DNA of 53,374 nt from a candidate division FCPU426 bacterium (GCA_027451505.1 DAIDJD010000143.1:1-53374); one strand, 5' to 3'; shown: positions 8,077 to 53,374, numbered from the stretch's first letter. Translations and numbers: made by a program. Notes: generated by a model from the sequence alone, not told the origin.

Positions 8077-8574
8077 CTACTTGAAATTGGTGAACTGGAT
8101 GTCGAGCTCCAGGTCCATGCCCCGCACCAGGGCCATGACGGCCTGCAGTTCGTCCTTGCTCTTGGACGCTACCCGTACGCTGTCGCCCTGGATGCTGGCG
8201 GTGACCTTGAGCTTCTTGTCCTTGATGGCGGCCACGATCTGCTTGGCCTTCTCCGCGGGGATCCCGTCGACGAGCTTGGCCTTGCGCCGCCACAGGCCCC
8301 CGCCCGCGGGTTCGGGGTCCTTGAGTTCCAGGCAGCGCAGGCTCAGGCCCCGCTTGACCAACCGGCCCTGGAGCACGTCCAGGACGGACTTCAGCCGGCC
8401 CTCGCTGTCGCTCTCCAGGCGCAATTCCTTGGCCTTGAGGTCGAGCTCCACCTTCGTGTGGACGCCGCGGAAGTCGAACCGGGTGGCCAATTCCTTGAGG
8501 GTCTGGTTGACGGCGTTGTCGAGTTCCTGGGCGTCGGGCTTGGATACGATGTCGAAGGAATTCTCGGAAGGCAT
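8077..8574 (-). CDS. yajQ: YajQ family nucleotide-binding protein
   Basis: MPSENSFDIVSKPDAQELDNAVNQTLKELATRFDFRG...VASKSKDELQAVMALVRGMDLELDIQFTNFK. Confidence 0.95.
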   Translation of the reverse strand: MPSENSFDIVSKPDAQELDNAVNQTLKELATRFDFRGVHTKVELDLKAKELRLESDSEGRLKSVLDVLQGRLVKRGLSLRCLELKDPEPAGGGLWRRKAKLVDGIPAEKAKQIVAAIKDKKLKVTASIQGDSVRVASKSKDELQAVMALVRGMDLELDIQFTNFK

Positions 8575-44285: not shown

Positions 44286-44314
44286 TTGACGAAATATCTG
44301 GGCGACTTTATAAT
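44286..44314 (+). promoter_or_regulatory. Near-consensus sigma70 promoter of the Qmo/Hdr-TusA-DsrE2 operon
   Basis: TTGACG (44286-44291), 17-bp spacer, TATAAT (44309-44314). Confidence 0.75.
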
Positions 44315-44321
44315 TCAGTTG

Positions 44322-44345
44322 TTAATAAATTAATTAATTTATTAA
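44322..44345. promoter_or_regulatory. 24-bp perfect AT-only palindrome at the predicted transcription start
   Basis: TTAATAAATTAATTAATTTATTAA, identical to its reverse complement, 7 bp after TATAAT and 26 bp before the first ATG. Confidence 0.6.
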
Positions 44346-44371: not shown

Positions 44372-44782
44372 ATGACGGATGCTGCGACGACAAGGCCGAC
44401 GCAAGATCGGATCCTGATCCTCGCGACCCAGGCCAGCTCCTACCCCGGAGCCAACGCCGTGGGCCAGGCCCGGCTCCAGTACGCGCCCGACACCTACATC
44501 TTCAGGGTACCGGATCCGGTGATGTTCCCCGAAACGTTCTACCTGCGCCGTTTCGAGCGCGGCTTCGCCGGGATCATCGTCATGTCCAGCGGCTCCGACT
44601 GCCCCTATGAGGGGGCCTACGCCCGCCTCTCCCAACGGATCGCCCGCGTCTACGACCTGATGAAGGAACGCGGCATCCCCTCCTCCCGGCTCAAGCTCAC
44701 GACCATCTGCACCGTGTGCCGGGCCGCCTTCCTAAAGGAGATCGCCTCGATGCGCGAGGCCATCGCGGCCCCCACCGGCTGA
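44372..44782 (+). CDS. MvhD-like hydrogenase/heterodisulfide reductase iron-sulfur subunit, divergent
   Basis: RILILATQASSYPGANAVGQARLQYAPDTYIFRVPDPVMFPETFYLRRFERGFAGIIVMSSGSDCPYEGAYARLSQRIARVYDLMKERGIPSSRLKLTTICTVC: MvhD fold layout with altered cysteines. Confidence 0.75.
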   Translation: MTDAATTRPTQDRILILATQASSYPGANAVGQARLQYAPDTYIFRVPDPVMFPETFYLRRFERGFAGIIVMSSGSDCPYEGAYARLSQRIARVYDLMKERGIPSSRLKLTTICTVCRAAFLKEIASMREAIAAPTG

Positions 44783-44844
44783 CAACGCCCCCCCCGCCCC
44801 TCCGGGGACGCCCCACGGCGGCCCCGCCCCCTTCGGAGAACGCC

Positions 44845-45093
44845 ATGCCAGAACTCAGCGAAATCAAGGCCGCCAAGACGGTGGACGCGCGCTCGATGGC
44901 CTGCCCCGGCCCCCTGCTGGAGGCCAAAAAGGCCGTCGGCGGGGTCCCGGTGGGCCAGGTCCTGGAGGTGCTCTCCGGGGACAAGGGCAGCCGCGAGGAC
45001 ATCCCCGCGTGGTGCCGCAAGATGGGGCACGAATTCCTCGGGTTCCTCGAACGCGACGGCCACGACAGCCTCTTCCTCATCCGCAAGAGGTAG
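44845..45093 (+). CDS. TusA-family sulfur carrier protein
   Basis: KTVDARSMACPGPLLEAKKAVGGVPVGQVLEVLSGDKGSREDIPAWCRKMGHEFLG: CPxP motif. Confidence 0.93.
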   Translation: MPELSEIKAAKTVDARSMACPGPLLEAKKAVGGVPVGQVLEVLSGDKGSREDIPAWCRKMGHEFLGFLERDGHDSLFLIRKR

Positions 45094-45095
45094 CC

Positions 45096-46427
45096 ATGAC
45101 GGCCTCAGCCACCGTTTCCGCCTCCGCCGCGACGCTGGACGTCGACGTCCTGGTGGTGGGCGGGGGGATCGCCGGGCTTCAGTCCGCGCTCGAGGCCGCC
45201 GAACAGGGGCGCAAGGTGCTGGTGGTGGAGCGCCAACCCAGCATCGGTGGGCGCATGATCAACCTGAGCAAGGTCTTCCCGACCCTGGACTGCGCCAGCT
45301 GCATCACCACGCCGCGCATGGCCTCCGCCGCCCACCACCCCAACATCACCATCCGCACGTACTCGGAACTGGGCCCCATCCGCCGGGAGGGACCCCGCTT
45401 CACCTCCACCCTGCGCCAGAAGGCCCGCTACGTCGACGAAGCGGCCTGCATCGGCTGCAAGCGCTGCGAGGAGGCCTGCCCCGTGTTCGTCCCGGACGAA
45501 TACGAGCACGCCCTGGGGGCCCGCAAGGCCATCCGCATCCCCTTCACCAACGCCATCCCCCAGACGGCCGTGCTGGACATGGACCACTGCACCCTGTGCG
45601 GCCTCTGCGCCAAGGCCTGCCCCACGGACTGCATCGACTTCCTCCAGGAGGACGCCGAGATCCCGGTGACGGCGGGGGCCGTGATCCTGGCGACCGGCCA
45701 CGAACTCACCAGCATGGCCGCGAAGCCGGAGTATGGCAGGGCCGCCCTCCCCAACGTGATCTCCCCCATGCAGGCCGAACGCCTGCTGGCGCCCCACGGC
45801 GCCTACGGGCGGGTCCTGCGGCCCTCGGACGGGAAGATTCCGGACTCCATCGCCTACGTGCAGTGCGCCGGCAGCCGCGACGCCAGCCTGGGCGTGCCCT
45901 ATTGCTCGCGCGTCTGCTGCATGTACGCGGTCAAGCAAGCCATGCTCCTTTCCGGCTCCCTGCCGGTGGCCGACATCACCATCTACTACATGGACATCCG
46001 GGCCTTCGGGAAGGGCTACGAACAGTTCGTGGCCAGCGCCCGCGCCATGGGCATCAATTTCGTGAAGGCCAAGGTCGCGCGCATCCGCGAGGACGCCGAC
46101 CACAATCCGATCGTCCGAATCGAGCGCCAGGAGGCCGGCGGAACCGTCGAGGAGGTGCGCCACGACTTGGTGGTGCTCTCCCTCGGCATGCTCCCAGGGG
46201 CCGACCCCGAACGGGAGGGCTTCGCCGGGGTGCTCCGGGACGCGGACGGCTTCGTGCGCACGCCGGAGGCCAAGCTGTCGCCCACGCTCACCGACGAACC
46301 GGGGATCTTCGTCGCCGGGACGGCGGCCGGGCCCAAGGACATCGTCGATTCCATCCAGGACGCCGGGGGCGCCGCCATGGAGGCCCTGCGCCACCTGCGT
46401 TCCAACGGACTCGAGGGGCGGCCATGA
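45096..46427 (+). CDS. HdrA-like/QmoA-like FAD and iron-sulfur protein
   Basis: VVGGGIAGLQSALEAAEQGRKVLVVERQPSIGGRMINLSKVFPTLDCASCITTPRM; CIGCKRCEEACP and CTLCGLCAKACP. Confidence 0.92.
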   Translation: MTASATVSASAATLDVDVLVVGGGIAGLQSALEAAEQGRKVLVVERQPSIGGRMINLSKVFPTLDCASCITTPRMASAAHHPNITIRTYSELGPIRREGPRFTSTLRQKARYVDEAACIGCKRCEEACPVFVPDEYEHALGARKAIRIPFTNAIPQTAVLDMDHCTLCGLCAKACPTDCIDFLQEDAEIPVTAGAVILATGHELTSMAAKPEYGRAALPNVISPMQAERLLAPHGAYGRVLRPSDGKIPDSIAYVQCAGSRDASLGVPYCSRVCCMYAVKQAMLLSGSLPVADITIYYMDIRAFGKGYEQFVASARAMGINFVKAKVARIREDADHNPIVRIERQEAGGTVEEVRHDLVVLSLGMLPGADPEREGFAGVLRDADGFVRTPEAKLSPTLTDEPGIFVAGTAAGPKDIVDSIQDAGGAAMEALRHLRSNGLEGRP

Positions 46428-48205
46428 ACGGCCCAGGAACGGCCCCGGACTCCGGGCTGGGCGAGGAAACCGAGGACGTGCGCGTGGGCGTGTACGTGTG
46501 CCACTGCGGTGGGAACATCAGCGACGTGGTCGACGTGAAGGAACTCGCCGCCCTATCGGCGGAATACCCCCACGTCGTGGTCGCGAAGGACTACCCCTTC
46601 ATGTGTTCGGACCCGGGCCAGGCCCTGATCGTCGAGGACATCAAGGCGCACGGGGTCAACCGGGTGGTGGTGGCCTCCTGCGCCCCGGCCCTCCACGAGC
46701 AGACCTTCCGGCGCGCGCTCCAGCGCGGCGGCCTCAACCCCTACCTTTACGAACACGTCAACATCCGGGAGCAGGTGAGCTGGGTCCACAAGGCGGACCA
46801 CGCCGCGGCGACCCGCAAAAGCTTGGCCCTGGTCCGTGCGGGTATCGAAAAGGTGGTGCGGCAGGACCCCTTGGAGGCCCTGCGGGTCTCGGCCGAACGC
46901 CGGGTCGCGGTCATCGGCGGGGGCGTGGCCGGGATGAAGGCCGCCCTGGCGGCGGCCGGCGCGGGCCTCGCGGTGACCCTGTTCGAGAAGGGCCCGGCCC
47001 TGGGAGGGCGCCTGCCCGAACTGGGCCGGGTTTTCCCCACCGAAGACGAGGGGGCGGCCCTGTCCCGCCGCATGGAGGAGGAGGTGCGTTCCCAACCCGC
47101 CATCGAGGTACGGCTGGGCGCCGAGGTCCGCAGGGTGGACGGCTTCGTGGGACGCTTCAGCGTGGAGGCCGGGGACGGACCTCCGGTGAAGGCCGGGGCG
47201 CTCATCGTGGCCACCGGCTATGACCCCTACGCCCCGGCGCCCGGCGAATTCGGGGCGGGCGGCCCCCTCACCGTGACCTTGCCGGAATTCCGGGCCGCGC
47301 TTGAGGGGCTTACCGAGGGCCCCCTGCTCACCTGGAAGGGCCGCCCCATCCGGGACCTGGCCTTCATCCACTGCGTGGGCAGCCGCCAAGTGGAGGGGAT
47401 CCACGCGCCCCAGGCCGACGGCAAGGTCAACGACTACTGTTCGCGGGTCTGCTGCACCGCGACGCTGCAGACCGCCGAGCGGGTGCTCGACCGGCACCCC
47501 GGCACGCGCGTCTACGACTGCTATAGGGACATACGCACCTATGGCCGGGGCCACGAGGCCATCTACGAGCGCGCCGCGAGGAAGGGGACGCTCTTCTTCC
47601 GCTACCGGGAGGACGCCCCCCCGACCCTGGTGGAGGAGGGCGGGCGCGCGCGCCTGAGGGTCAAGGACGTCCTGACCTGGGACACCGAGGTGGACCTTCC
47701 CGTGGACTTGGTCGTCCTGGCCACCGGGATGGTCCCGCGGGACATAGGGGCCCTCGCCGACTCGCAGAAGCTGCCCCGGGGCGCCGACCGCTTCCTGCAG
47801 GAGGCCCACCCCAAGCTCAGGCCGGTGGAACTGGCCAACAACGGGATCTTCCTCGCCGGGACGGCCCAGGCGCCGATGACCGTGGACGAGGCCTGCGCCG
47901 CCGCCGGGGCCGCCGCGTCAAAGGCCGCCCAACTGCTCCTGCCGGGGGAAATCCAGCTCGACCCGTTCATCGTGGCCCTGAAGCCGGAGCGATGCGACGG
48001 CTGCGGGGCCTGCCTCGACGCCTGCTCCTACACGGGCTCGCTGACCCTCAGCGGGGAGGGTCCCGGGAGACGGGTGGAGGTGAACCCGGCCTTGTGCAAG
48101 GGCTGCGGCGCCTGCGTGGCGGTGTGCCCCACGCGGGCTTTGGATATCGCCGGCTGGGGCCTCGACCAGTTCGAGGCCATGGCCGACGCGATCGCAGCGG
48201 TCTGA
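46424..48205 (+). CDS. HdrA-like/QmoB-like FAD and iron-sulfur protein without fused MvhD domain
   Basis: N-terminal HdrA domain VGVYVCHCGGNISDVVDVKELAAL...RVVVASCAPALHEQTFRRALQRGGLNPYLYEHVNIREQVSWVH; VIGGGVAGMKAALAAAGAG; ferredoxin CDGCGACLDAC and CKGCGACVAVCP. Confidence 0.92.
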   Translation: MNGPGTAPDSGLGEETEDVRVGVYVCHCGGNISDVVDVKELAALSAEYPHVVVAKDYPFMCSDPGQALIVEDIKAHGVNRVVVASCAPALHEQTFRRALQRGGLNPYLYEHVNIREQVSWVHKADHAAATRKSLALVRAGIEKVVRQDPLEALRVSAERRVAVIGGGVAGMKAALAAAGAGLAVTLFEKGPALGGRLPELGRVFPTEDEGAALSRRMEEEVRSQPAIEVRLGAEVRRVDGFVGRFSVEAGDGPPVKAGALIVATGYDPYAPAPGEFGAGGPLTVTLPEFRAALEGLTEGPLLTWKGRPIRDLAFIHCVGSRQVEGIHAPQADGKVNDYCSRVCCTATLQTAERVLDRHPGTRVYDCYRDIRTYGRGHEAIYERAARKGTLFFRYREDAPPTLVEEGGRARLRVKDVLTWDTEVDLPVDLVVLATGMVPRDIGALADSQKLPRGADRFLQEAHPKLRPVELANNGIFLAGTAQAPMTVDEACAAAGAAASKAAQLLLPGEIQLDPFIVALKPERCDGCGACLDACSYTGSLTLSGEGPGRRVEVNPALCKGCGACVAVCPTRALDIAGWGLDQFEAMADAIAAV

Positions 48206-48217
48206 AGGGGGAGGGCC

Positions 48218-48511
48218 ATGACCGTCGAGGGCATGAAGAAGGTCCAGGAACAGCTCAAGACCCTGCGCAAAAGGCGCGGGCCCGTGCCGGAGGCGCTGGC
48301 CGAATCGGTCAAATCCGTGGCGCGGGCCCAGGGCGCGGTGCTGGCCGCGCTGAAGGGGGGGCCCCGCACGGTCCCGGAGCTCTCCGCCTCCACGGGCCTG
48401 CCCGGCGCCGAAGTCCTCTGGAACGTGACCGCGCTGCGGAAGTACGGGCAGATCGACGACGGCCCGGCGCGGGACGGCTACCCCACCTATGCGCGAAAGG
48501 AACGGCCATGA
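48218..48511 (+). CDS. Small winged-helix-like protein of unknown function
   Basis: VARAQGAVLAALKGGPRTVPELSASTGLPGAEVLWNVTALRKYGQIDDGPARDGYPTYARKERP: HTH/wing-like layout. Co-directional, embedded in the operon. Confidence 0.7.
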   Translation: MTVEGMKKVQEQLKTLRKRRGPVPEALAESVKSVARAQGAVLAALKGGPRTVPELSASTGLPGAEVLWNVTALRKYGQIDDGPARDGYPTYARKERP

Positions 48512-49656
48512 GCGACGTGGTCGACGCGGGCCTGCTTCCCGAGCTCAGGTCCTACGGCGCCTTCGACATCTCGGCATGCTTCAACTGCGGCAACTGCTCG
48601 GCGGTCTGCCCGCTGTCCGACGGGGAGGGTTCCTTCCCGCGGAGGATGATCCGCCTGGGCCAACTCGGCCTGCGGGACCGCCTCCTCGCCGGCCGCGAGG
48701 CGTGGTTGTGCTACGCCTGCGGGGAATGCACCGCCACCTGCCCGCGCCAGGCCGGCCCCTCCGACTACATGGCGGCCTTGCGGCGGTGGTCGGCGGCCCG
48801 GCACGAGCCCACCGGCCTGGGCAGGCTTATGCACCGCGGAGCCTGGGGCGTCTCCGCCGTGACCCTCGGGCTGGGGGCGGCCCTGGCGGCGGCGCTCCTC
48901 ACCGTGCCGGCCCCCCCCTCGCCGCCCCAGTGGATCTTCCGCGCGGTGCCCTACGGCGCCATCCACGAGGTGGGTCTGGCGGTGTCCGCCCTCCTGGCCG
49001 TGTCCCTGGCGTGGTCCCTGGGCCGCTTCCTGCGCCGGGCCGACCCGGGATTCCGGTCGCTGTCGAGGCCGCTGGCCGACCACCGCGCCGCGGCCAAGGC
49101 GACCCTGCGGGAACTGGTCCAACTCCGCCGCTGGGCTCCGGCGGCGCCGGGGCGTGCCGACCCCGGTTCACCCCGGGCCGCGCACATGCTGATCGCGGGC
49201 GGGTTCATGGCCCTCCTGGCGGCGACCAGCCTGGACTTCGTCTTCATCTACCTGCTCAAGTTCGCCTCGTTCCCGCCGGCCCGCGTCCTGGGCACCCTGG
49301 GAGGCGCGGCCCTGCTCCTGGGCGTGAGCGCGGCCCTGCTGCGGCGCGCCCGGGCGGCGGACCCGGCCGTGCGCCGCAGCCACGCCGCGGACTGGTGGCT
49401 GCTGGGGGCCCTATGGTTCCTGGCGGTGAGCGGATTCTGGCTGGAGGCCGACGTGGGCCTGCGCGTCGCCGGGGCGTTCCAGGACGGGGTGCTGCTGCTG
49501 CATGTGGTGGCTGCCCTAGAGCTCATCCTGCTGTTGGGCTCCGGCAAACTGGCCCACGTCGTGTACCGTCCCCTCTCCCTTTACCTCCATTACTTGGACG
49601 GGGGATCCGCGTCCGCCGGGGGCTGCGGCGGGGCCGTTTCGAGGAGCGCGCCATGA
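48508..49656 (+). CDS. QmoC-like protein: HdrC-type 2x[4Fe-4S] domain fused to a multi-TM membrane domain
   Basis: CFNCGNCSAVCPLSD and CYACGECTATCPRQA followed by about six hydrophobic TM segments with several His. Confidence 0.85.
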   Translation: MSDVVDAGLLPELRSYGAFDISACFNCGNCSAVCPLSDGEGSFPRRMIRLGQLGLRDRLLAGREAWLCYACGECTATCPRQAGPSDYMAALRRWSAARHEPTGLGRLMHRGAWGVSAVTLGLGAALAAALLTVPAPPSPPQWIFRAVPYGAIHEVGLAVSALLAVSLAWSLGRFLRRADPGFRSLSRPLADHRAAAKATLRELVQLRRWAPAAPGRADPGSPRAAHMLIAGGFMALLAATSLDFVFIYLLKFASFPPARVLGTLGGAALLLGVSAALLRRARAADPAVRRSHAADWWLLGALWFLAVSGFWLEADVGLRVAGAFQDGVLLLHVVAALELILLLGSGKLAHVVYRPLSLYLHYLDGGSASAGGCGGAVSRSAP

Positions 49657-50210
49657 GCACGTCGCCCGAAGAACTCGACCGCAAGGTCGCCGAACTGGAG
49701 GGCCGGCTTTCCCGCCTGGAGGGATCCGCGCCGGAGGACCGCCTCAGCATGGTGGTGATGAGCGGGGACCTGGACCACCTGCTGGCCGCGTTCATCATCG
49801 CCACCGGCGCCAGCGCCATGTTCGAGAAGGTGAGCATGTTCTTCACCTTCTGGGCCACGGCGGCGCTGCGCGACCCCAAACTGGCCCCGCCCCGCAAGGA
49901 CGTGATGGGAGCCGCCTTCGGCGCGCTGCTGCCGAAGGGGCCCCCCAAGTTGGGCCTTTCCCGGATGCACTTCTGCGGCCTGGGAACCTCCGTGCTGAAG
50001 CGCCTGATGAAGAGCAAGGGGGTGCGCTCCCTGGACGAACTGATCGCGCTGGCGGCGGAGGGGGGCGTGGAGATCTTCGTCTGCGAGATGAGCATGAACC
50101 TCATGGGCATGCGCCGCGAGGAGCTCATCGACTACCCCGGGTTGAAGCTCGCCGGGGTGGCCACCTTCCTCCAGCGGGCGGGAGCCTCCAAGGCGTCGCT
50201 GTTCATCTGA
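49653..50210 (+). CDS. DsrE2-like (DsrE/DsrF/DrsH-like) sulfur-transfer protein
   Basis: LSMVVMSGDLDHLLAAFIIATGASAMFEKVSMFFTFWATAAL...GLSRMHFCGLGTSVLKRLMKSKGVRSLDELIALAAEGGVEIFVCEMSMNLMGM. Confidence 0.92.
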   Translation: MSTSPEELDRKVAELEGRLSRLEGSAPEDRLSMVVMSGDLDHLLAAFIIATGASAMFEKVSMFFTFWATAALRDPKLAPPRKDVMGAAFGALLPKGPPKLGLSRMHFCGLGTSVLKRLMKSKGVRSLDELIALAAEGGVEIFVCEMSMNLMGMRREELIDYPGLKLAGVATFLQRAGASKASLFI

Positions 50211-51953: not shown

Positions 51954-53374
51954 TCAACGCACCACCGCGACCTTCAGGAAAGACCGCGAAAGGGGCGCCC
52001 CTGAGGCGCCCGCCCGGGAGAACTCCAGCACCGCGATGTACACGCCCGAGGCCAGCCCCGAGGTCGGGAAGATCAACGCGGCGGTTCCCCCCAACTCCCG
52101 CTCCACCAGGGAGCCCCGAACGTCATAAAGCAGGCCCTCCACCAAACCCCCCGCGACCGGGTTGTAGTCCACGGTCAGCGGCGTCCCGGCCATGGCTGGA
52201 TTGGGGCCGAACTTCAGGCCCGACAGGCCCCCCTGGTCCACGGACACCACATTGAAGCTCTTGGCGATCACGACGCGGCTGGCCCCTTCCTCGGAGAAGT
52301 AGACCAAGTCGGCGGTGTAGACGCCCGAGGCCACGGGGGAACCCGCGTCGCTGAGCCCGTCCCAGGAGGTCTGGGCCGGCGCGCCCCCCGAGGCCTCCGA
52401 AAGGTCGAACACCAGGGGATTTCCGGCCTTCCCCGTGGCCGGGTCATAAGCGGGCGCCCAGGTGGTGACGGGAAGGCTGAAGCCCACCACCCCGCCGGCG
52501 GAGGTCGGCAAGGTCAGCCTTCGGACGACCTCCCCCGAACTGTCGTAGATCACCAGGGAATTCTGGGGCCCTTCGTCGATGACCTGGATCGACCGGTCCA
52601 GGGTGGTGGCCTGGCCGAAGGTGTTCAGGTACTGGACCTCGATTTCGTAGATGCCGGAGGCCACCAACTGCCCGCCGCTGTTGAGCGCGGACCACACCAA
52701 CACGTCCGAGGCCGAACCGCTGGGCATCTTCAAGTATCCCGGGAAGGTGATGTGGACGCTGCCGTCGGGCCCCTGCGACCCGCCGTTGATGACCGTGGAA
52801 CTGAGCGTCAACTGGCCCGGGACGTATTCCGCGCTGCCGTTGAAGAGGGTATCCACCAACTCGCCGGCGCTGTTGTAGACGCCCACGGTCAATTGGTCGC
52901 CGCCGGGGAACGGGGTCGGCGACGCCGTGGGGCTGTCCGACGCAGTGGGGCTGGCCGTATAGGTCGGGCTGGGCGTGGGCGTGGGGCTGCGGGTCGCTGT
53001 GTCCGTGACCGTCGGCGTCGAGGTCCAGGATGGCGTGGCGGTGGGGGTCGCCGATGGGCTCGGCGAGTCGGTGAAGGTGGCCGACTTCGTGGCCGTGTCC
53101 GACGCCGTGAAACTCGCCGTGGGCGTGGCCGTGGCCGTGGCCGTGGGCGAGTCGGTGGAAGTGGAGGACTGGGTGGCCGTGTCCGACGCCGTGAAGCTCG
53201 CCGTGGGCGTCGCCGTGGCCGTGGCCGTGGGTGAATCGGTGGAGGTGGAGGACTGGGTGGCCGTTTCCGACGGCGTGAAGCTCGCCGTCCACGACGCCGT
53301 GGGCGTGGAGGTCGGGGTGCCCGTGGCCGTGTCCGAGGACGTGAAGGTCGGGGTGGCCGTGGGGGAGGACGTCG
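51954..53374 (-). CDS. Surface/secreted protein with Pro/Thr/Ser-rich linker and FlgD-like Ig C-terminal modules (5' truncated by window edge)
   Basis: TVGVYNSAGELVDTLFNGSAEYVPGQLTL... with repeated FlgD-like units (QNSLVIYDSSGEVVRRLTL; LVEGLLYDVRGSLVERELGG). The same frame stays open upstream through ...SPTATATATPTASFTASDTATQSSTSTD... to the window edge. Confidence 0.82.
   Translation of the reverse strand, partial: TSSPTATPTFTSSDTATGTPTSTPTASWTASFTPSETATQSSTSTDSPTATATATPTASFTASDTATQSSTSTDSPTATATATPTASFTASDTATKSATFTDSPSPSATPTATPSWTSTPTVTDTATRSPTPTPSPTYTASPTASDSPTASPTPFPGGDQLTVGVYNSAGELVDTLFNGSAEYVPGQLTLSSTVINGGSQGPDGSVHITFPGYLKMPSGSASDVLVWSALNSGGQLVASGIYEIEVQYLNTFGQATTLDRSIQVIDEGPQNSLVIYDSSGEVVRRLTLPTSAGGVVGFSLPVTTWAPAYDPATGKAGNPLVFDLSEASGGAPAQTSWDGLSDAGSPVASGVYTADLVYFSEEGASRVVIAKSFNVVSVDQGGLSGLKFGPNPAMAGTPLTVDYNPVAGGLVEGLLYDVRGSLVERELGGTAALIFPTSGLASGVYIAVLEFSRAGASGAPLSRSFLKVAVVR
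53089..53374 (-). repeat. 84-bp in-frame tandem repeat encoding a Pro/Thr/Ser-rich linker
   Basis: Units at 53089-53172 and 53173-53256 nearly identical, third degenerating unit from 53257 into the edge; encodes QSSTSTDSPTATATATPTASFTASDTAT. Confidence 0.85.

Follow-up and report, generated by a model that had tools for sequence, protein, structure and literature searches.

Several systems that combine Hdr-type proteins or sulfur carriers have been described. The open literature covers QmoABC of types I and II (PMC10504309), the QmoAB-HdrBC or HdrAACB arrangement (PMC6397845), sHdr (PMC6067878) and YTD (PMC12998232). Type II QmoABC is known from Ammonifex degensii and Vulcanisaeta moutnovskia. 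It has been described as nearer to hdrA, and as occurring with or without Apr/Dsr (PMC10504309). QmoAB-HdrBC/HdrAACB has been described in some sulfur oxidisers and in Gram-positive sulfate reducers (PMC6397845), and the YTD cluster of sulfur disproportionators carries TusA and a DsrE-family gene together (PMC12998232). A search of the open literature, with subscription papers outside its scope, found none describing the seven-gene cassette analysed below.

The cassette lies in a stretch of 53,374 nucleotides from a candidate division FCPU426 bacterium, the whole of which is called the window here. A sequence-only reading had proposed a seven-gene, Qmo-type membrane complex with TusA and DsrE2 sulfur carriers. 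The synteny, the QmoAB/HdrC-like architecture, its sulfur carriers and the lack of aprA, dsrA and HdrB stood up to analysis; the Qmo identity did not, and the arrangement is not rare. The cassette appears to be a widespread and so far uncharacterised system that handles reactive sulfur.

Genes and functional residues of the cassette

Seven co-directional genes occupy 44372-50210, all on the + strand, and an ORF check of this region reproduced the gene order and junctions first read there. The spacing between tusA and hdrA1 is 2 nt, and ATGA overlaps join hdrA1 to hdrA2, the winged-helix gene to the HdrC-membrane fusion, and the fusion to the DsrE2-like gene. The widest breaks in the set are 62 nt between mvhD and tusA and 12 nt between hdrA2 and the winged-helix gene. 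Upstream of mvhD lies a sigma70-like promoter (TTGACG-17-TATAAT; 44286-44314, + strand), a consensus match only, at 11/12 positions (1 found, 0.4 expected). Just past its -10 box is an AT-rich palindrome, TTAATAAATTAATTAATTTATTAA (44322-44345, no strand assigned), a possible operator. Further downstream in the window, 51954-53374 encodes long Thr/Ser/Pro-rich repeats and an FlgD-like C-terminus, and runs past the contig end.

The first gene (44372-44782) encodes an MvhD/FlpD-like protein (PF02662, 58 bits). The MvhD fold is kept, the AF2 model matching MvhD (5odc_D) with a TM of 0.78, and the canonical cysteine motifs are gone from the window protein except for C77. This residue is found in 97%, and C113/C116 in 100%, of 78 rows. 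The latter pair, ICxVC (C113-x-x-C116), is specific to the cassette: every one of the 78 MvhD-like rows has it, and all apr-linked QmoB lack it. Extra cysteines (CAYPGA, SCGxECP) are retained in the MvhD-like subunits of some other cassettes; the motif loss is therefore partial across the family. Next comes the TusA sulfur carrier (44845-45093; PF01206, 76.5 bits), whose CPGP cysteine, C20, is present in 99% of 77 rows.

The next two genes encode HdrA-like flavoproteins, an assignment supported by Pfam/NCBIfam. HdrA1 (45096-46427) has a FAD module with an inserted 2x[4Fe-4S] ferredoxin domain; HdrA2 (46424-48205) has the HdrA N-terminal domain, a FAD module and a C-terminal 2x[4Fe-4S] domain. 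HdrA1 residues C257/C270/C274/C275 and K280 are present in 100% of 81 rows. These, with E228, correspond to C386/C399/C403/C404, K409 and E356 of the HdrA of Methanothermococcus thermolithotrophicus (5ODC), where Lys409 sits near the flavin N5 (PMC6405883, PMC10734219). HdrA1 thus keeps every cluster ligand and the flavin Lys of the bifurcating HdrA (PMC6405883), and flavin bifurcation is possible. HdrA2 has Gln at the position of K280. The Lys is also kept in apr-linked QmoA, so K280 is no proof of bifurcation.

The winged-helix protein (48218-48511, 97 aa) gave no Pfam match above cut-off. Its AF2 model (pLDDT 93.5), compared with known structures, has an ArsR/MarR/Zalpha-like fold, and a search for an assigned function by structure match returned generic winged-helix matches only; the protein is probably an accessory or regulatory subunit. 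The following gene (48508-49656) encodes HdrC (2x[4Fe-4S]) fused to a QmoC-like, diheme-b-like membrane anchor with several hydrophobic segments. All eight Fe-S cysteines of HdrC are invariant or nearly so, and H226, H350, K347 and R354, heme- or quinone-side residues, are common to QmoC.

The last gene (49653-50210) encodes a DsrE-family sulfur carrier with C144 in 100% of 49 rows. Its first assignment as DsrE2 holds at the level of the family (PF13686 DrsE_2, 144 bits) and fails for DsrE2 in the strict sense, with 73.8 bits against a cut-off of 210 (NF047629 equivalog). By a Kyte-Doolittle scan, the protein has a single weak hydrophobic stretch in place of a pair of transmembrane helices. 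In relatives of the cassette, a FadL/TodX-type outer-membrane transporter gene lies near this gene in 17 Elusimicrobia and 3 Armatimonadota loci (for example, L065:14724-15941); it may import a hydrophobic sulfur compound.

The Qmo identity was examined with a maximum-likelihood tree of 77 rows containing cassette HdrA1 and HdrA2 together with apr-linked QmoA and QmoB and the methanogen HdrA 5ODC_A. Cassette HdrA1 forms a clade of its own (100/100), as does HdrA2 (100/99), and the apr-linked QmoA/QmoB lie apart in their own group (100/100). The HdrA1 and HdrA2 topologies are largely congruent. The window HdrA1 is 32-38% identical to apr-linked QmoA, and the window HdrA2 25-29% to QmoB. Against the QmoC equivalog NF038018, with a cut-off of 300 bits, the window fusion scores 162 and its relatives 137-196, compared with 397-495 for true QmoC. 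In those genomes examined that carry both the cassette and aprA, a separate canonical QmoABC is encoded beside aprAB. The tree, the identities and the profile score rule out a canonical type I Qmo, and the proposed Qmo-type membrane complex is not borne out.

Distribution and regulation in relatives

An HdrA1 profile scan of genome contigs yielded 341 relatives, of which the best 80 were analysed. All seven components lie beside each other in 64/80 of these loci, and in 44/44 of those whose contigs reach far enough; the loci are co-directional. The synteny noted in the window is therefore conserved and is not peculiar to this contig, nor is the cassette rare: the best 80 of the 341 relatives span at least 8 phyla. 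They include Elusimicrobia, Armatimonadota, Desulfobacterota, Planctomycetota, Chloroflexi, Acidobacteria, Spirochaetes, Marinamargulisbacteria and several single MAGs, the labels being taken from record titles, which for MAGs may be wrong. Closer to the window, a kinship search found the full set in a genome of the same order (L036, the same contig as L046) and in one of the same phylum (L037), and a cassette cut by the contig end in L039, of the same phylum, and in L040, from outside it.

Within phyla the occurrence is patchy. HdrA1 (E < 1e-130) was found in 4/45 genomes of the window's phylum and in 4/120 genomes of the phylum of G064, which suggests horizontal transfer. Across phyla, cassette HdrA1 is mostly 55-71% identical to that of the window. 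Most loci share the window's arrangement, with HdrC fused to the membrane anchor. A short, soluble HdrC match is seen instead in 15 loci, mainly of Desulfobacterota (one of them, L081, is cut by a contig end), and in nearly all of the soluble-HdrC loci a CCG-domain protein adjoins it. The cultured sulfate reducer NaphS2 (L124) is one carrier of the soluble form. Since many Desulfobacterota carry this form without the membrane anchor, quinone is no invariant partner of the cassette.

Other genes recur nearby. CoA-disulfide-reductase-like flavoproteins are encoded near some cassettes (L081:880-3333, L057:16290-17972, L103:15515-16864), and the L081 frame matches DsrE2 too. A protein of ~240 aa recurs near Desulfobacterota cassettes (L090:10898-11674 and 15 other loci); its L090 copy has no Pfam match.

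An ArsR-family gene clusters near the cassette in 31 loci among the best 80 of the 341 relatives; in L046 it lies between mvhD and tusA. The nearest PDB entries of one such ArsR are YgaV, SqrR and BigR. In most of the close cassette ArsR proteins, the two sensor-cysteine positions of YgaV/SqrR/BigR are both occupied by cysteine; several more distant ones lack the two. Repressors of the SqrR/YgaV/BigR type sense sulfane sulfur (PMC12423496). A conserved palindrome, GTTTAG-N6-CTAAAC, directly precedes the cassette or the accompanying arsR in 20/80 loci (for example, L046:947, L056:7856, L069:7809 and L077:7799). An operator scan with spacers of 3-10 over 1.16 Mb gave 22 matches, against 0.25 expected from mononucleotide shuffles, and 1/22 lies elsewhere. 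The predicted sulfane-sulfur-sensing ArsR and the putative operator in relatives, alongside the TusA and DsrE cysteines and ICxVC, tie the cassette to sulfane sulfur at the level of sequence.

The GTTTAG-N6-CTAAAC site and an adjacent arsR are absent from the window, and the AT-rich palindrome at 44322-44345 differs from that site. Contig C113 of the window's genome encodes an ArsR of the two-cysteine SqrR/YgaV type (L167:8339-8677), related to the L046 ArsR at 59%. Its gene is oriented divergently from those for pyruvate:ferredoxin oxidoreductase, and an imperfect operator lies upstream of it at 8285.

Proposed function and rival readings

In the window's genome, no match to aprA or dsrA was found, and no HdrB-like protein; the CCG proteins there look like GlcF beside GlcD and a large FAD-linked fusion. 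The absence of aprA, dsrA and HdrB first noted at the locus thus extends to the genome, provisionally because the assembly is ~90% complete. With these three genes sought, no canonical Apr-Qmo or sHdr pathway appeared elsewhere in it to which the locus could belong. The genome encodes a heme-copper oxidase (COX1), a YeeE/YedE-type sulfur transporter pair (PF04143, contig C228) and two MqnA/MqnD-type futalosine menaquinone genes, which make the proposed exchange with the quinone pool plausible. Among 54 carrier genomes, aprA is over cut-off in 15 (39 without), dsrA in 20 (34 without), and PF02621 menaquinone genes occur in 23, the classical Men pathway lying outside the search.

The reading that we prefer, held with about even confidence, is a menaquinone-linked, two-electron consumption of carrier-bound sulfane sulfur by one seven-gene complex. 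HdrA1 and HdrA2 would form a split two-flavin Hdr core, on which the MvhD-like protein would dock, and the HdrC-heme-b fusion would link the assembly to the membrane and menaquinone. The DsrE2-like protein and TusA would hand over sulfane sulfur bound as a cysteine persulfide. At a cysteine site on the MvhD-like/HdrA face, two electrons would then convert TusA-S-SH into TusA-SH and sulfide. They would be drawn from menaquinol together with a low-potential donor, for instance ferredoxin (confurcation). Because a repressor that senses sulfane sulfur would lift its block on the genes in the presence of that sulfur, their product is likely to consume it. The lack of HdrB and of lipoate-binding partners makes a six-electron oxidation to sulfite unlikely, and this in turn favours a two-electron persulfide/thiol step via flavins, Fe-S clusters and menaquinone. 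Gene content, conservation, the cofactor and cysteine motifs, the menaquinone and oxidase genes of the host and the sensor-type regulator of relatives are observed, while we infer assembly into one complex, substrate, direction and bifurcation. Separate carriers working beside an independent complex, in place of one assembly, are possible. Counting against the preferred reading are also the position of the genome's own ArsR on another contig, the absence of the exact operator from the window, the Desulfobacterota form that has no membrane anchor, and the presence of PF02621 genes in only 23/54 carriers.

The direction of electron flow is not fixed, since carriers occur both with an oxidase and without one (COX1 in 24/54, none seen in 30/54). 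Persulfide reduction by menaquinol and a low-potential donor is, in our reading, slightly more likely than oxidation, and the opposite flow, with carrier-bound sulfur oxidised into menaquinone, is nearly as possible. A purely oxidative role, in which menaquinone (and perhaps ferredoxin, by bifurcation) would receive electrons from sulfide or carrier-bound sulfane sulfur and the respiratory chain would be fed, is a doubtful possibility. It would account for the COX1 and menaquinone genes of the window's genome and for the likeness to the TusA/DsrE/Hdr gene sets of sulfur oxidisers, and SqrR/SoxR-type regulators govern sulfur oxidation genes elsewhere (PMC12423496). It fits poorly, however, with the 30 carriers in which COX1 was not found, with the many that are sulfate reducers with aprA/dsrA, and with the lack of HdrB in the genome, and of lbpA near the cassette, for oxidation to sulfite.

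We regard as improbable that the cassette is a type II Qmo or a QmoAB-HdrBC variant serving APS reductase or another partner, with the carriers as incidental neighbours. Neukirchen et al. is cited in support, and the Desulfobacterota cassettes with HdrC and a CCG protein would suit it. Yet aprA is below cut-off or absent in 39/54 carriers, the aprA-bearing genomes examined have their own canonical QmoABC, sulfur carriers are present in every one of the 44 untruncated loci, and the QmoC-like scores fall below the cut-off. A general thiol-disulfide or sulfur-assimilation role outside energy metabolism, such as supplying sulfur for cofactor synthesis, is very improbable: TusA has biosynthetic roles that would agree with it, as would the occurrence in 4/120 and 4/45 genomes, but an Hdr core with two flavins and a heme-b anchor in the membrane would be costly for housekeeping, and patchy accessory occurrence better suits a specialised redox function.

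Taken more broadly, the consumption of carrier-bound sulfane sulfur by one complex would make the cassette a member of a new, widely transferred group of membrane TusA-persulfide:menaquinone oxidoreductases, with flavin con- or bifurcation, a cysteine-switched MvhD-like docking site and, in many lineages, a persulfide-sensing repressor; this generalisation is tentative. If true, a sulfane-sulfur energy or redox module would be present in Elusimicrobia, Armatimonadota, Planctomycetota, Chloroflexi and other poorly known lineages, and surveys of sulfur genes based on Dsr, Apr, Sox or sHdr would miss it. It would also connect a sulfur sensor with sulfur carriers and an Hdr-type flavin complex in a concrete way that can be tested.

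Comparison with described systems

Like type I QmoABC, the cassette encodes a pair of HdrA-like flavoproteins along with an MvhD module and a membrane subunit of the HdrC-heme-b type. In type I QmoB the MvhD part is fused and its cysteine motif intact, whereas in the cassette it is a separate gene and the motif is lost except for C77; type I QmoABC is also apr-linked, while most cassette carriers lack an aprA partner. For type II QmoABC, compared by description only, the accessible part of the source mentions no TusA, DsrE or winged-helix gene (PMC10504309). A possible overlap of type II Qmo with the cassette is the main threat to its novelty. The QmoAB-HdrBC/HdrAACB outline is that of the Desulfobacterota form (HdrA1, HdrA2, HdrC, CCG protein); the window form differs, by gene content rather than by tree comparison, in its HdrC-membrane fusion, the lack of a CCG protein and the carriers in the operon.

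Like sHdr of Hyphomicrobium and Acidithiobacillus, which has ArsR sulfane-sulfur regulators, the cassette combines Hdr-like proteins with TusA and DsrE; this sHdr-type trait of clustered carriers is found in 44/44 untruncated loci. Unlike sHdr (PMC6067878), it is without HdrB1/B2 or lbpA, and has two different HdrA and a membrane anchor. An lbpA-like gene formed no conserved cluster near the cassette, and a crude motif scan of related loci gave no match. A full sHdr reading is weakened by the lack of HdrB in the genome and of lbpA near the cassette. The YTD cluster has yedE and conserved hypotheticals, with no Hdr genes listed for it (PMC12998232); yedE is absent from the window operon and from the recurrent cassette neighbours. 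The Hdr/TusA cluster of Ca. Stygibacter (PMC8542988) may be the same thing as the cassette. Long frames joining two HdrA-like halves also occur in the window's phylum (L038:6451-9546 and L044:4512-8141, the latter adjoining 2-oxoacid:ferredoxin oxidoreductase-like genes) and are a different Hdr complex. With the methanogen HdrABC-MvhAGD, the cassette has in common the HdrA cluster ligands, the flavin Lys and the MvhD fold; in contrast to it, the cassette has neither HdrB nor a hydrogenase, and it has a split HdrA, a membrane anchor and sulfur carriers.
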